NCBI RefSeq assembly: GCF_006543045.1
Contig: NZ_RBZW01000006.1
Coordinates: forward strand, 1-32,773
From: Salinadaptatus halalkaliphilus
GTDB lineage: Archaea > Halobacteriota > Halobacteria > Halobacteriales > Natrialbaceae
Direction of reading: 5' to 3'
Length of the DNA stretch: 32,773 nt
The position numbers were made by a program, and so were the translations under genes. Shown piece after piece: positions 1-14,285 of this stretch. The notes beneath the pieces were generated by a model. It had not been told where the DNA came from. It searched no databases and was given only the letters and a program-made list of their open reading frames with translations. Numbering within the stretch: the stretch's first letter is position 1; each line of letters begins with the position of its first letter.

Positions 1-51
1 GAGATCGTCCTCACTGAGGTGACGGACGATCTCTTTTTCCTGTCCCGCCAT
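1..51 (-). CDS. IS630-type transposase, N-terminal 17 codons (runs off window)
   Basis: Read on the minus strand, an ATG at 51 opens MAGQEKEIVRHLSEDDL and runs off the left edge without a stop. From memory this matches the N-terminus of haloarchaeal IS630-family orfA/helix-turn-helix proteins; that recognition is not a search result. The palindrome at 1-34 is part of this coding sequence. The AT-richer 52-85 stretch between this start and the IS66 fragment would be the IS630 terminus. IS630 elements insert at TA, and a TA lies at 76-77, where IS66-like coding sequence resumes. IS630 therefore probably jumped into the IS66 gene and removed its front from this side. Confidence 0.55.
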   Translation of the reverse strand, partial: MAGQEKEIVRHLSEDDL

Positions 52-85
52 TACCCTACCAACTCAAAGCATACCTAAATCTTCT

Positions 86-1329
86 GTGAACCACTACGAG
101 TCCCCGACCTCGCAGGATGACGAAGACGACGATCTCCGAACTGACGGCGGCACTCCCGGCCGGAAGAACGGGCACGACCCGGAGTGGCGTTCTACAACTG
201 ATCCTGACGAAGAAGTCGAGGTCACCTACGACTGTTGTCCTGGTGTGGCGAACACTTCGACGAGTCGGTGGGCGTCAGCCCCCGACTCGTCGAGGAGATC
301 CCGGACCCGCAGCCTCCAGAGGTTACCCAGTACAACCGCCACTGCTACCAGTGCCACTCCTGTGGGACAGAGACAGTTGCGACACACCCCGACTGCCCCG
401 ATGAGGGGCAGTTCGGGGTGAACGTCATCGCTCAATCAGCACTTTCTCGGTACGATCACCGCTTTCCCTACCGGAAGATCGCTGATCGCTTCGAGCAACT
501 GCACGGACTGGAACTGTCTGGTGCGTCCGCGTGGCACGCGACCGAGCGCGCTGCGCGCGCCGGTCGCTGTGAGTATGAGCAAATCCGTCGAGAGATCCAA
601 GATGCTGACGTGGTTCATATTGACGAAACAGGCATCAAACGCGACGGTGAACAAGCGTGGATCTGGACTTTTAGTACCGCCCAGCACACGTTGTACGCGG
701 TCAGAGAGAGTCGTGGGAGTGATGTTCCCGCGGAAGTCCTCGGCGAGGACTTCGCGGGAACGGTCATCTGTGACGGGTGGACGGCGTATCCGGCCTTCAG
801 CAGCAATCTTCAGCGGTGTTGGGCGCATATTCTGCGGGAGGCTAAAGACGCAGCCGAAAAACAGGTAGAAGGCGAACCGATCTACCGCGCTCTCACACAG
901 TTATACGTCGCTCTCCAGACCCAACTGGAGAGCGACTTGACAGTACGCGAACGGGCAGAACTACAGCGTGTGGCGCGCAGAGAACTTGAATCACTGATTG
1001 AACGGTCAGTTCCCGACGGACCAGTGGCAACACTCCTCGAGAAGATCGAAGGAGGTCTCGACCACTGGCTCACCTTCGTCGGTGAGCCAGCGGTCTCCCC
1101 AACGAACAACGCAGCTGAGAACGCGCTTCGTGAACCAGTTGTTCTCCGGAAAATCATCGGGACACTCCGCAACGATCGAGGCATGTTCGTCCACGAGACG
1201 ATCTTGTCCCTGCTGGCGACGTGGCGCCAGCAGGGACGCAATCCCTACGAAGAACTTCGCCGAGTCGTCAGCTGCAATGAGATGATCTCACGGGCTCACG
1301 CTGTGCCGGCTGTCGAGACCTCGGGGTAA
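86..1329 (+). pseudogene. IS66-family transposase, 5'-truncated and frameshifted
   Basis: The main open frame (235-1329, about 364 codons) is an IS66 DDE transposase. It contains VVHIDETGIK (first catalytic Asp), the VICDGWTAYPAF block (second Asp), the CWAHILRE block and the NNAAENALR block with the catalytic Glu. The zinc-binding N-terminal domain lies in another frame. Frame 2 from 86 reads TPGRKNGHDPEW...VEVTYDCCP and then breaks, while frame 1 resumes with SWCGEHFDESVG. One base lost at about 239-241 explains this: adding it restores CCPWCGEHF, a CxxC finger. The usual coiled-coil N-terminus before residue NHYE is absent, replaced by IS630 sequence. The copy is probably inactive. The C-terminal part is intact down to a TAA that abuts the broken PNPOx gene. 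Confidence 0.85.
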
Positions 1330-1683
1330 ACACATACGTTTACGTTTTCACCGGATGACGAGGATTTCTACTTTCGACTCGGCTATGCCATGGAAAGCCG
1401 CAAGCGAGAGTACATCGAAGCGACCGAGCGCGCGACGTTCGTCGTCGCTGCCGAAACGAACGCAGGGTGGAAAAGCGTCGTAGCACGGGGAGAACTCGGA
1501 CACCGCAACACCGTGGAAAACCTGGATCGAGTGACTCCACCCGATAGGTCGGTCAGCGATGCAGAAGCCGAACTCGATATCCCGTTCTACCACGTCTTTG
1601 ATGAACCGTCGGAACTGCTGTTTACACTTGCCCGTCTTCGCACGACCGAACTTACTGGAATCGCAGAAGCAGCTGACAACTGA
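1330..1683 (+). pseudogene. Pyridoxamine-5'-phosphate-oxidase-like (FMN split-barrel) protein, 5'-truncated
   Basis: The frame continues directly from the IS66 stop codon as TFSPDDEDFYFRLGYAMESRKREY, then EATERATFVVAAETNAGWKSVVARGEL, and ends with FTLARLRTTELTGIAEA. This is the pattern of small haloarchaeal PNPOx-like flavin-binding proteins: a beta strand with R/K before the alkylated-surface segment, then the W-x-SV-V-G strand. The normal N-terminal 40-50 residues are missing and no start codon precedes the conserved part; the in-frame ATG at 1390 lies inside the domain. The IS66 insertion therefore took the 5' end. Family assignment is from pattern memory. Confidence 0.6.
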
Positions 1684-1773
1684 TTCGGGTCATATCGATT
1701 AGCTGAATTGAGGCGCTAAGCCCCCTTCCTCAGCGAGCGTCTTCGGCGCGAGCAGGGAGGGGATACAGCGTCC

Positions 1774-1914
1774 CCAGAAATCGGAGATTTCTGGTGTGCG
1801 AACGAGACGCGAAAGCGTCTCGTCAACGCCGCAAGAGTTTCTTGGACTGTTCTACAGCAGGCCCACAGGCCTACGTTCCACAACAGTTAACTACACAACG
1901 TGTGTAACTTGTGG
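1774..1914 (+). other. Four consecutive hairpins in the TnpB element leader
   Basis: The leader before the small ORF is almost continuously self-complementary. CCAGAAATC/GATTTCTGG spans 1774-1782 with 1786-1794 (9 bp, 3-nt loop). ACGAGACGC/GCGTCTCGT spans 1802-1810 with 1815-1823 (9 bp, GAAA tetraloop). AGGCC/GGCCT spans 1859-1863 with 1868-1872. A bulged 10-bp stem pairs 1878-1889 with 1905-1914 and contains an inner ACAC/GTGT hairpin. The last stem ends one base before the GTG start at 1916. Possible roles are a structured 5' leader, an operator for the small protein, or single-stranded left-end structures. Which of these applies cannot be told from sequence. Confidence 0.6.
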
Positions 1915-1915
1915 T

Positions 1916-2041
1916 GTGGCAAAGCGCAAGAACATCTCAATCCGGGACGACCAAGAGGAGTGGATTCAGGAGAACCACCTGAATCTCTCGTCTTTCGTCC
2001 AGGAGAAACTCGATGAGCTCATCGAGGAACGCGAAAACTGA
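1916..2041 (+). CDS. Small ribbon-helix-helix-like protein paired with TnpB
   Basis: GTG at 1916 encodes a 41-residue protein beginning VAKRKNISIRDDQEEWI and ending EKLDELIEEREN. The layout of a short basic beta-strand (KNISIR), then a helix (DDQEEWIQEN) and a second helix (LSSFVQEKLDELIEE) is that of a minimal ribbon-helix-helix DNA-binding protein of the CopG/Arc type. Its stop overlaps the tnpB start by one base (TGATG), so the two are translationally coupled. The longer reading from 1796 is rejected because it runs through the hairpins and gives no family-like sequence. I recall similar small ORFs before tnpB in other haloarchaea. A regulator of tnpB or an accessory factor is the natural guess, but no function is shown. 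Confidence 0.7.
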   Translation: MAKRKNISIRDDQEEWIQENHLNLSSFVQEKLDELIEEREN

Positions 2042-3285
2042 TGTACTACGCCTACAAGTATCGCCTCGAGCCGTCCGACGCCCAGCGCAAGGAGTTGGAC
2101 CGCCACCGCGATATCTGTAGGCAACTGTACAACCACACTCGCTACCGCCTCAACGAGTACCGAGAAAACCACGATGAACTGCCGTCCATGACCACGCTTC
2201 GGTCAGAACTCCCCGACCTCAAGAAGTGGTGGGACGGTCTCTCGGACGTGTACTCGAAGGTTCTCCAAACTGTCGTGGAACGGCTGTTCAACAACCTCAG
2301 TAGCCTGTCTGCACTCAAGCAGAACGGCTACGGCGTCGGCCAACTCAAGTGGAAACCGCCACGGGAGTTTCGCAGTTTCACATACAACCAGTCTGGCTTC
2401 AAGCTCGACAAGAAGGGCGGTCAGACTGTCCTGTCACTCTCGAAACTCGCGGACATTCCAATCCGACTCCACCGAGAGATTCCTGAGGACGCCACACTCA
2501 AGCAGGTCACGCTCAAAAAGGAGTCGACCGGCGAGTGGTTCGCCACGTTCGGCGTTGAAGTCGACCGAGAGCCGCCAGAGAAGCCAGACCAACCGAAGAA
2601 CGCCGTCGGGATCGACGTGGGCATTCTCAAGTACGCACATGAGACCGATGGTCACGCGGTCGAATCGGTCGACCTCTCGGACGAACGCGACCGACTCGAG
2701 CGAGAGCAACGCAAGCTCTCGCGCAAAGAGCACGGCTCGAACAACTACGAGAAGCAACGCCGTCGCGTGGCCAAGTGTCACTTCGACCTGAAGCGCAAGC
2801 GCCGGGACTTCCTTCACAAGCTCTCGAACCACTACGCTCAAGAGTACGATCTCGTGGCGGTCGAAGACCTTGACGCGAAAGGCTTGGTCGAACGTGACGG
2901 CAACTCTCGGAACCGCGCTGGAGCGGCGTGGGGAACGTTGCTCCGAATGCTCGAGTACAAGTGCGAACGCGAAGGCACGCACTACGTGGCCGTCGATCCG
3001 GCTGGGACGACCAAAGAGTGTGCGGCCTGCGGTGTCTCGACCGACAAACCGCTATGGGTCCGCGAACACTCGTGTCCCTCGTGCGGTTTCACGGCGGATA
3101 GGGATTGGAATGCAGCGTGGAACATTCTTTCTCGCGGTATCAAGCAGTTAGGAGCGGGATACTCCGAATCAACGCCTGTGGAGACTACGCTCCCTACGGG
3201 AACCACTTCGGTTCCTGCAAAGCGCGTCCTCGAAGCAGGAAGCCCCTCCCTCAAGGAGCGAACGGCGTTAGCCGTGAGCGAGTAG
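2041..3285 (+). CDS. tnpB: RNA-guided nuclease TnpB (IS1341-type)
   Basis: A protein of 414 aa. The N-terminal helix-turn-helix-like segment (YYAYKYRLEPSDAQ) is followed by the OrfB wedge region. The RuvC-like nuclease is complete: GIDVGILKYA carries the first Asp (about residue 192), VAVEDLDAKGL carries the Glu (about 280), and TADRDWNAAWNIL carries the last Asp (about 354). A zinc ribbon lies between the last two (CAACG and CPSCG). TnpB proteins are reRNA/omegaRNA-guided DNA nucleases that cleave the empty donor site and so favour retention of the element. Nothing in this copy looks broken. The last 100 nt of the gene are strongly structured and double as the guide-RNA scaffold. Confidence 0.93.
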   Translation: MYYAYKYRLEPSDAQRKELDRHRDICRQLYNHTRYRLNEYRENHDELPSMTTLRSELPDLKKWWDGLSDVYSKVLQTVVERLFNNLSSLSALKQNGYGVGQLKWKPPREFRSFTYNQSGFKLDKKGGQTVLSLSKLADIPIRLHREIPEDATLKQVTLKKESTGEWFATFGVEVDREPPEKPDQPKNAVGIDVGILKYAHETDGHAVESVDLSDERDRLEREQRKLSRKEHGSNNYEKQRRRVAKCHFDLKRKRRDFLHKLSNHYAQEYDLVAVEDLDAKGLVERDGNSRNRAGAAWGTLLRMLEYKCEREGTHYVAVDPAGTTKECAACGVSTDKPLWVREHSCPSCGFTADRDWNAAWNILSRGIKQLGAGYSESTPVETTLPTGTTSVPAKRVLEAGSPSLKERTALAVSE

Positions 3286-12309: not shown

Positions 12310-13560
12310 ATGTACGAGACGATCCTCGTCCCGACCGACGGGAGTACGGTGGCAGCAGACGCTGGAGACTACGCGATCCGACTTGCAGAGCGATTCGGCG
12401 CGACGCTCCACGTGCTCTCAGTCCTCGAGCAGGGACTCGTCGGCGGCGACGACGAAGACGAGGGCGAACGAGCGGTCGAGGAACTGGCCGAGCGAGCGAG
12501 CGATCGCGGCCTCGAGGTGACGACGGAACTTCGCGAGCAGGAAGACAACGTCCACGAAGAGATCCTCACGGCGGCCGACGACCACGACGCCGATCTGATT
12601 ACGATGGGGACGACCGGCCGCAGCGGTCTCGGTCGATTCCTGCTGGGCAGCGTCGCCGAACAGACGCTCCAAGAGTCGACGATCCCGGTTGTGACCGTTC
12701 ACGAGGAGACTACTCTCGAGGGCGAGTTCGAGCGCATTCTGGTCCCCACCGACAGGAGCCACAGCGCGACGACGGCACTCGAGCACAGTATCGATCTCGC
12801 GGTCGAGACTGGCGCACGGCTCCACGTCGTCCACGTCAGTGACGAGGAGACCGTCGACGGAACCGAAACGTTCGACGTTGCGGAGACGACTGCGGACGGC
12901 GACGATACCGACGAATTCGACCTCGATCCGATCGACGACGCGCTCGAGCGACTACGCGAGTCACCGCTGGAGACCGTCGACGTGTCGGTGCCCGACGGTC
13001 GCGTCGACCAGCAGATTCTGGCAATAGCAGCCACGTACGACGCTGACTGCATCGTGATGGGGACCCACGGCGAGACCGGCCTGCGGCGGTATCTCCTCGG
13101 GGGTTCGACCGAGCGGGTCGTCCGTTTCGCCGGCGTACCGGTGATCGGCATTAGCGCACCGCGTGCCGAGACCGCGACCGTCGAGTATCTCGACTATCAG
13201 GTCGTCGACGAACGCGGGTGGTCGCTCGAGGATGACCACCTCCTCGAGCGTGCCGCAGACGCGGATCTCGACACAGAGGCCCACGGTACGTTCGAGGTGG
13301 CACGCGACGAGTACGTCCTCGACGCCGCCGAGGCAGCCGGTCACGCCTGGCCGTTTCACTGCCGGGCCGGCGGCTGCGTGAACTGTACTGCTGTGGTGCT
13401 CGAGGGGGACCTCGAGATGGACGTCCAGCGGAGCCTCTCCGAGGAAGAGGTAGAAGAGAGAGGATTTCGATTGACCTGTGTCGGCACGCCAGCAAGTGAC
13501 TCTATCGAGTTGGTCTACGGTGCGAAACACCTCGACGAGTTGCGAGACCGAGTCATCTAG
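12310..13560 (+). CDS. Fusion protein: two universal stress domains and a [2Fe-2S] ferredoxin
   Basis: A protein of 416 aa from ATG 12310. Residues 1-133 are a UspA domain with an intact ATP signature (TMGTTGRSGLGRFLLGSVAEQ). Residues 141-282 are a second UspA domain (ILVPTDRSHSATTALEHS, VMGTHGETGLRRYLLGGSTER; the last turn is GG rather than GS). Residues 288-416 are a complete halobacterial-type plant-like ferredoxin: VEYLDYQVVDERGW, cluster ligands C351, C356 and C359 (FHCRAGGCVNCTAVV) and C390 (FRLTCVG), and the usual end LVYGAKHLDELRDRVI. The acidic N-terminal ferredoxin insertion typical of halophiles is also kept. Nucleotide binding coupled to electron transfer is inferred. The next gene is a ferric-reductase-like membrane protein. 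Confidence 0.95.
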   Translation: MYETILVPTDGSTVAADAGDYAIRLAERFGATLHVLSVLEQGLVGGDDEDEGERAVEELAERASDRGLEVTTELREQEDNVHEEILTAADDHDADLITMGTTGRSGLGRFLLGSVAEQTLQESTIPVVTVHEETTLEGEFERILVPTDRSHSATTALEHSIDLAVETGARLHVVHVSDEETVDGTETFDVAETTADGDDTDEFDLDPIDDALERLRESPLETVDVSVPDGRVDQQILAIAATYDADCIVMGTHGETGLRRYLLGGSTERVVRFAGVPVIGISAPRAETATVEYLDYQVVDERGWSLEDDHLLERAADADLDTEAHGTFEVARDEYVLDAAEAAGHAWPFHCRAGGCVNCTAVVLEGDLEMDVQRSLSEEEVEERGFRLTCVGTPASDSIELVYGAKHLDELRDRVI

Positions 13561-13576
13561 AGTTCCAGACCGGGAC

Positions 13577-13590
13577 TAGCTTTATTTGAG
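13577..13590 (+). promoter_or_regulatory. TATA box of the ferric-reductase-like gene
   Basis: TAGCTTTATTTGAG lies 45-58 bp before ATG 13635. The expected start near 13610 leaves about 25 nt of leader. The gene therefore has its own promoter although it follows the USP-ferredoxin gene by only 74 bp. Confidence 0.5.
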
Positions 13591-13634
13591 CGATCGATGT
13601 CCGTGTAGTCATAAGTACGTGACACGAAGAGACA

Positions 13635-14285
13635 ATGACAGCAGACACCAATAACGAACTCACCCATCATCTGGGTGTAGCGGTCGGAAGCATCGTCATT
13701 GCAGTCCTGCTGTGGGGAGTCGGCTACCGCGGACAGCGAGTTGTCGCCGCCATCCCCTTCTTCATTCTGTTTGTCGTAATGATCATCGGGCCGTTGGTTC
13801 GTATCCGGCCGTCGATCAGGCGTCGGTTTTCCGGGAACTTCCCCGTGAACTGGCGGTCGGAACTCGGCATCTGGTTTGCCATCTGGTCCGTGATCCACGT
13901 CCTGTTCGTGTTCGCTGCGCGCGACTGGGACGTCGTCGGCTATCTCGTCGACATGAGTCCCTGGGCGTTCGGTGCCTTCGTGGCCGTCCTCATCGCGATC
14001 GCTCTGGCCTTCACGTCAAACAACATAGCCTACGACTACCTCGGTCCGAAAGCCTGGAAGTGGCACCAGAGCCACGGCACGTACGTGATCTTCTGGCTCG
14101 TGGCCGTCCACGGCTACGACCGGGCGTACCTCCGCCCGTACGAGGAGCTGGGCTTCCCATCGGACGATCCGCTCCACCTGCTCTACCTCGCGATGATCGT
14201 CGTGGTCGTCCTGCTCCACGTGGTCGCGTTTGCGGCGGTCGTTTCCGAATATCGGAAGACCGGCGAGTATCCGCCGGATCTATGA
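13635..14285 (+). CDS. Ferric-reductase-like transmembrane haem protein (MsrQ/FRD type)
   Basis: A protein of 216 aa with about six hydrophobic segments (VAVGSIVIAVLLWGVGY, IPFFILFVVMIIGPLV, IWFAIWSVIHVLFVF, FGAFVAVLIAIALAFTSN, YVIFWLVAVHGYD, LLYLAMIVVVVLLHVVAFAAVV). Candidate haem-b ligands are paired His in IWSVIHVLF and in WHQSHGTYVIFWLVAVHGYD. The block NIAYDYLGPKAWKWHQSHGTY is the ferric-reductase-like domain signature (MsrQ: LG..W..LHRL.Y). MsrQ passes electrons from the respiratory chain to periplasmic methionine sulfoxide reductase; no MsrP is present here. Its neighbour is a USP-ferredoxin fusion, so a ferredoxin-to-membrane electron path is a reasonable inference. The stop codon begins repeat copy D. 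Confidence 0.8.
   Translation: MTADTNNELTHHLGVAVGSIVIAVLLWGVGYRGQRVVAAIPFFILFVVMIIGPLVRIRPSIRRRFSGNFPVNWRSELGIWFAIWSVIHVLFVFAARDWDVVGYLVDMSPWAFGAFVAVLIAIALAFTSNNIAYDYLGPKAWKWHQSHGTYVIFWLVAVHGYDRAYLRPYEELGFPSDDPLHLLYLAMIVVVVLLHVVAFAAVVSEYRKTGEYPPDL

Follow-up and report, generated by a model that had tools for sequence, protein, structure and literature searches.

A tandem universal stress protein-ferredoxin fusion is encoded beside a putative haem-binding membrane protein in haloarchaea

The DNA analysed here (the window) is a complete 32.8-kb contig of a 4.5-Mb haloarchaeal genome. Two consecutive genes encode a protein in which two universal stress protein (USP) domains precede a ferredoxin, and a predicted six-helix membrane protein of the FRD type (Table 1). 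Public annotation names the first 'ferredoxin Fer' and the second 'hypothetical protein'. Apart from the fusion, the surrounding stress island (window positions 3657-25324) contains six USP genes, a DAG kinase-like gene and genes for a four-CBS protein and a P-type cation ATPase; genes of the IS66 and IS605 TnpB types lie at the left edge of the window (1-3285).

Table 1. Features of the locus and of related loci, with their positions and the basis of each assignment.
Feature	Position	Strand	Basis or remark
USP-USP-ferredoxin fusion protein, 416 aa	12310..13560	+	Open reading frame, domain profiles, 31 full-length homologous copies
USP domain 1, residues 1-131	12310..12702	+	Pfam and alignment
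USP domain 2, about residues 140-282	12727..13155	+	Pfam and alignment
Complete halobacterial [2Fe-2S] ferredoxin domain, residues 290-416	13177..13557	+	NF041393
74-bp gap between fusion and FRD gene, with promoter-like block CTTTATTTGAGCGATCGATGTCCG	13561..13634	+	Sequence conservation only
Inverted repeat GTCAT-N6-GTGAC, between promoter-like block and FRD start	13608-13623		Sequence conservation only
Six-helix FRD (YedZ/STEAP-type) membrane protein, 216 aa	13635..14285	+	Invariant residues, model, fold matches
Small two-helix b561-like protein	L074:5883-6104, L075:5423-5635, L077:5763-6002, L220:5317-5526		Directly downstream of fusions without an FRD neighbour
Tat/lipobox [2Fe-2S] ferredoxins (predicted exported, lipid-anchored)	L080:6453-6932, L081:6484-7164, L141:4333-4842, L074:8536-9024 and others		Adjoin fusion-unlinked FRD genes or lie near group B fusions

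The first-pass annotation of this DNA had described a single 416-residue protein joining two stress domains to a complete ferredoxin, and our analysis bears this out. The reading frame runs from an ATG start with no internal stops, Pfam detects two Usp stretches (E 4.5e-58) and a Fer2 domain spanning residues 327-392, and the NCBIfam equivalog 'ferredoxin Fer' (NF041393) aligns over positions 2-128 of its 128 with 199 bits against a cut-off of 150. The N-terminus, MYETILVPTDGS, is of a kind typical of USPs. The four cluster cysteines, C351, C356, C359 and C390 (C-x4-C-x2-C ... C; codon starts 13360, 13375, 13384 and 13477), lie where that annotation had put them and are invariant across 26 aligned fusions. 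The best solved relatives of the ferredoxin domain are 1e0z/1e10 and 1doi. A separate free Fer, 55% identical to the fused one, is encoded on another contig of the same genome (L001), together with two further Fer2 proteins elsewhere in that genome. Both USP domains carry the signature of ATP-binding, MJ0577-type USPs (G-2x-G-9x-G-(S/T) plus an Asp after strand 1): D10 and G100-x2-G103-x9-G113-S114 in the first domain and D148, G251, G254 and G264 in the second are invariant in the 26 homologues, and at residue 265 of the second the window copy has Gly (GG) where nearly all others have Ser (GS). Judged from its sequence, the Usp-Usp-[2Fe-2S] ferredoxin fusion is real. Fer domains also occur in other fusions, whose partners were assigned by eye: a DnaJ-like (J-domain-like) module in L214, L216 and L219, a DNA-binding-like (HTH-like) segment in L215 and, in one genome, Ser/Thr kinase-like and winged-helix-like regions in a 727-aa protein (L218).

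Full-length matches to the fusion were found in 23 of 391 genomes of the class, all but one of them within the window's own family. Combined with 125 family genomes, the search yielded 31 full-length copies of the same domain order in 28 haloarchaeal genomes (one outside the family); none was listed outside the class in a phylum sample of 393 genomes that includes many Halobacteria. In a tree of ferredoxin domains, which like the alignment took in 26 of the 31 copies, the fusions fell on one side of a branch and 31 ordinary Fer proteins on the other (support 99/95), consistent with a single fusion event. That the fusion might be an artefact of one genome with a frameshift-like junction, a possibility raised when the protein was first noticed, is ruled out by the recurrence of the architecture in 31 copies and by purifying selection (pairwise dN/dS about 0.15-0.2). 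Named carriers include Natrialba magadii, N. chahannaoensis, N. swarupiae, several Natronococcus, Natronolimnohabitans, Natrarchaeobius, Halobiforma nitratireducens, Natronorubrum halalkaliphilum and Natronosalvus hydrolyticus, isolates which we take to be haloalkaliphiles; the carriers are salt-loving archaea, mostly of soda lakes. We found neither a published description of a USP-ferredoxin fusion nor, in agreement with the first-pass annotation, a characterised protein of the USP-USP-ferredoxin architecture in the open-licence literature, where reviews list archaeal USP fusions with permeases and Na+/H+ exchangers, ferredoxin not being among the partners. The fusion architecture and the pairing described below appear undescribed in that literature; the component parts are of known kinds.

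The membrane protein had been read as a six-helix haem protein of the MsrQ/FRD class without its usual MsrP partner. Its modelled structure does have six long helices and its residues follow an FRD pattern, but MsrQ identity was rejected: the MsrQ profile (NF003831) gave 23.5 bits against a cut-off of 130, with weak matches far under cut-off in 15 of 31 family members, and no MsrP was found above cut-off in the window genome (best 56.5 versus 207 bits). MsrP is indeed missing, as claimed, but the protein belongs to a distinct FRD family that elsewhere lies beside an exported ferredoxin. No Pfam family matched the window protein itself; the Ferric_reduct profile matched 7 of the 31 family members (best E 3e-4), and a profile of the family matched nothing among PDB sequences.

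Residue conservation and fold comparison nevertheless point to a more specific assignment. Across 31-32 sequences H12, R74, H88, H144, Q145 and H159 are invariant, and pairwise dN/dS is about 0.07-0.1. In YedZ/STEAP proteins an Arg replaces the first TM3 haem His, and many short FRD forms retain the outer haem ligands only, with Arg and Gln at the inner side (PMC3591440). Here R74 and H88 are spaced by 14 in TM3, as are 101 and 115 of NOX2, and the invariant H159 in TM5 matches the surface-proximal haem His; Q145 precedes H159 by 14 residues, against 13 expected from NOX2 numbering, and thus lies near the inner-His position, for which the invariant H144 is an alternative ligand. Fold matches to the model were headed by STEAP2, STEAP4, STEAP1, SpNOX and NOX5 at Z 9.7-8.3, a range in which helical bundles (Z below about 13) can match by chance, and Foldseek returned a probability of 1.0 with E 0.013 (model pLDDT 72). 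The R74/H88/Q145/H159 pattern, taken with the STEAP/NOX structural matches, lends moderate support to a single-haem FRD protein of YedZ/STEAP type, not MsrQ.

Relatives of this gene were also seen in other settings. A second FRD gene remnant in the window genome (G000:C72:8845-9003; residues 164-216, 87% identical), near a P-type ATPase-like fragment, is probably a decayed duplicate of the locus. FRD relatives of 45-72% identity (L112, L116, L118, L122, L123, L132-L135, L138-L140) lie on contigs that were binned to Chloroflexota, Spirochaetes, Aenigmatarchaeota and candidate-phylum bacteria, with low GC in those of the last two groups; assembly names suggest soda-lake sediment for several, and either wide gene transfer or mis-binning would account for them. 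A 424-aa hypothetical protein (L151:7962-9236), encoded on a plasmid in Alkalihalophilus pseudofirmus OF4, an alkaliphile, resembles the FRD protein in its N-terminal part (31% identity).

Co-occurrence of the membrane gene with the fusion in other genomes, a check that the first-pass annotation had suggested, was borne out. Of the 31 fusions, 26 have an FRD gene no more than 3 kb away, in co-directional, divergent, swapped and interrupted orders. In most group A genomes (fusions about 67-82% identical to the window fusion) it follows on the same strand 73-317 bp downstream; in group C (about 50% identical) it is divergent from the fusion at 165-530 bp in all eight genomes, with flanks that differ almost everywhere. 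A TrkA-type gene separates the two in Natronococcus occultus, and the FRD gene lies 2.8 kb downstream of the fusion in one genome and 1.8 kb upstream in another. Four of the five remaining fusions are followed at 108-215 bp by a b561-like protein of 70-79 residues with two conserved His; the one that was scanned matched cytochrome b561, DUF4079, DUF4405 and PepSY_TM weakly, and by its sequence the small protein looks like a replaced haem partner. Only in G029 is neither partner adjacent, and there an FRD gene lies elsewhere in the genome. Among the 125 family genomes, 25 of 27 with the fusion have an FRD gene, as against 6 of 98 without it (Fisher p about 2e-18, with genomes counted regardless of shared ancestry), and in genera g3, g7, g9, g10 and g14 the two genes are mostly present or absent together (exceptions G283, G408 and G345). 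In the FRD tree a 100/100 branch separates groups A and C, together with two others, from eight fusion-unlinked proteins. In Natronococcus sp. A-GB1 the group A FRD gene is split over two frames (G365:C2:63221-63867; L082, L110) and the group C pair is intact.

Shared location could in principle produce such a pattern if both genes were carried along in plasmid-borne, USP-rich stress islands with no functional link, the fusion being an ordinary spare ferredoxin. Natrialba magadii and Natronococcus occultus do carry the pair on plasmids, and USP genes crowd the window. Against this, the pairing persists through changed order, orientation and flanks, and fusions without an adjacent FRD gene usually have a different putative haem membrane gene next to them; we regard mere hitch-hiking as very unlikely. 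The neighbours themselves, among them P-type cation ATPases, ClC, TrkA-type K+ proteins and many USPs, raise the further idea of a redox sensor for ion transport, in which the ferredoxin half would sense the electron pool, the USP half would relay its state to cation transporters, and the FRD protein would supply or drain electrons, and the pair would regulate K+/Na+/Ca2+ transport instead of exporting electrons in bulk. FRD relatives beside Na+/H+ exchangers in L068, L071 and L125, and directly downstream of one in L138, fit this idea. The transporter neighbours nevertheless change from genome to genome as the putative haem partner is retained, and transporters and USPs are abundant in these genomes anyway, and on balance we consider a sensor of this kind unlikely.

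Conserved sequence ahead of the FRD gene suggests how the pair may be expressed. In nine group A genomes a shared block around TTTATYTGAGCGATCGRTGTCCG precedes the FRD start by about 50 bp, and in 7 of the 9 an inverted repeat, RTCAC-N6-GTGA, follows it (GTCAT-N6-GTGAC in the window). The promoter-like block is retained where another gene intervenes (L079), and the FRD gene probably has its own promoter. The inverted repeat is a candidate repressor site; a TCAC-N6-GTGA box was found neither upstream of the fusion nor upstream of the divergent group C pairs. Since each gene has a separate conserved promoter-like block, the pair is better described as a module than as a strict, tight operon.

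FRD genes that stand apart from the fusion have a ferredoxin neighbour of a different kind. In L080, L081, L128 and L131 an FRD gene of the unlinked clade closely follows the gene for a small Fer2 protein, as does a 43%-identical homologue in L141. In those small Fer2 neighbours whose sequences were read, the Fer2 domain is preceded by a twin-arginine motif and a lipobox Cys. The FRD family therefore has two different [2Fe-2S] neighbours, the soluble fusion and the Tat/lipobox ferredoxin, which are predicted to lie on both sides of the membrane. Of the 391 genomes of the class, 29 have an FRD gene and 17 a close Tat ferredoxin, 13 of the latter with an FRD gene; the close Tat ferredoxin is absent from many genomes with the fusion/FRD pair, in the Tat ferredoxin of the window genome an Arg replaces the fourth Cys, and FRD relatives in several lineages have no ferredoxin in the flanking sequence examined. 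Frames of about 300-330 aa with two tandem Tat-ferredoxin-like domains (G283:C102:29024-29641, G033:C1:2681713-2682465, G318:C2:1213297-1213923 and others) encode a possible exported di-ferredoxin.

The first-pass annotation suggested a nucleotide-gated electron shuttle to or from the membrane, and this idea is partly supported. We propose that the fusion and the FRD protein are, respectively, the cytosolic and the membrane component of a transmembrane electron-transfer module whose USP half ties electron flow to energy state or stress, a reading to which we give slightly better than even odds (about 0.55). It builds on architecture, motif conservation, retained pairing and co-occurrence; from these we infer cofactor binding, direct contact, direction, nucleotide control and the final acceptor. 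The fusion would act as a soluble [2Fe-2S] ferredoxin for which the USP tandem serves as a platform. This platform very likely forms dimers and binds an adenine nucleotide, ATP or another; it may bind ATP as does TTHA0350, a tandem USP, in both of its domains (PMC12159084). The fused ferredoxin would be charged in the cytosol like an ordinary halobacterial ferredoxin and, once reduced, would pass electrons to the FRD protein. An FRD protein that lacks a flavin or NAD(P)H domain, as this one does, should depend on a soluble donor in the cytosol, for which the fusion ferredoxin is the natural candidate, and the pairing of the two is naturally read as an electron link; electron-transfer domains attached to FRD proteins are modular, Fer2 included (PMC3591440). 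The FRD protein would most likely bind a single b-haem close to the outer face, held between H88 and H159, and electrons would probably flow outward from it to an acceptor such as the exported Tat/lipobox ferredoxin or Fe(III).

Another reading is that the pair works as an assimilatory ferric reductase, reducing Fe(III) on the outside of the cell to serve iron uptake in alkaline brines, which hardly dissolve Fe(III). The named fusion-bearing isolates are presumably haloalkaliphiles, and the fold matches of the FRD model include STEAP4 with Fe(III)-NTA and Dcytb. Ferric reductases are also part of the FRD/STEAP family (PMC3591440). No iron transporter or regulator was recognised among the annotated neighbours of the pair, however, and the inverted repeat is not tied to any regulator; we consider a dedicated role in iron uptake quite unlikely. 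Returning to the electron-transfer module, its most specific form would have ATP or ADP on the USP tandem gate the flow from the protein's own ferredoxin through the outer-face haem to an exported ferredoxin, a nucleotide-controlled relay of haloalkaliphilic archaea. We offer this form tentatively, as an unlikely elaboration which, if true, would mean that universal stress proteins can act directly in redox chemistry.

USPs are abundant in haloarchaea but have few established functions. For a conserved USP that is covalently joined to a ferredoxin and has a retained putative haem membrane partner, electron transfer is a concrete biochemical output and a nucleotide a candidate input. The analysis also defines an FRD-type membrane family that recurs beside two topologically different [2Fe-2S] ferredoxins, one in a soluble fusion and one in an exported lipobox form.

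Each part of the proposed module resembles a known system. With halobacterial Fer (NF041393; 1e0z/1e10, 1doi) the fusion shares the whole 128-residue domain and the four Cys, but here Fer sits behind two USP domains and is encoded beside a membrane protein. With the tandem USPs TTHA0350 (3ab8) and A. fulgidus 3loq it shares two USP folds with ATP-type motifs; unlike the fusion, neither of these has a redox domain. The membrane protein has the six helices, R74-H88 in TM3 and H159 in TM5 in common with MsrQ/YedZ and STEAP of the FRD superfamily, and probably a STEAP/NOX-like fold, but differs in scoring far below the MsrQ cut-off, in lacking MsrP and a flavin/NAD domain, and in having [2Fe-2S] ferredoxin neighbours. 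MsrQ may use the flavin reductase Fre as its donor (PMC5676040), and STEAP1 can use cytochrome b5 reductase (PMC10659578). Like these systems, MsrPQ with Fre and STEAP1 with cytochrome b5 reductase, the proposed module would pair a one-domain FRD protein with a separate soluble cytosolic donor; in contrast to them, the donor proposed here would be an iron-sulfur protein on a nucleotide-binding stress platform.
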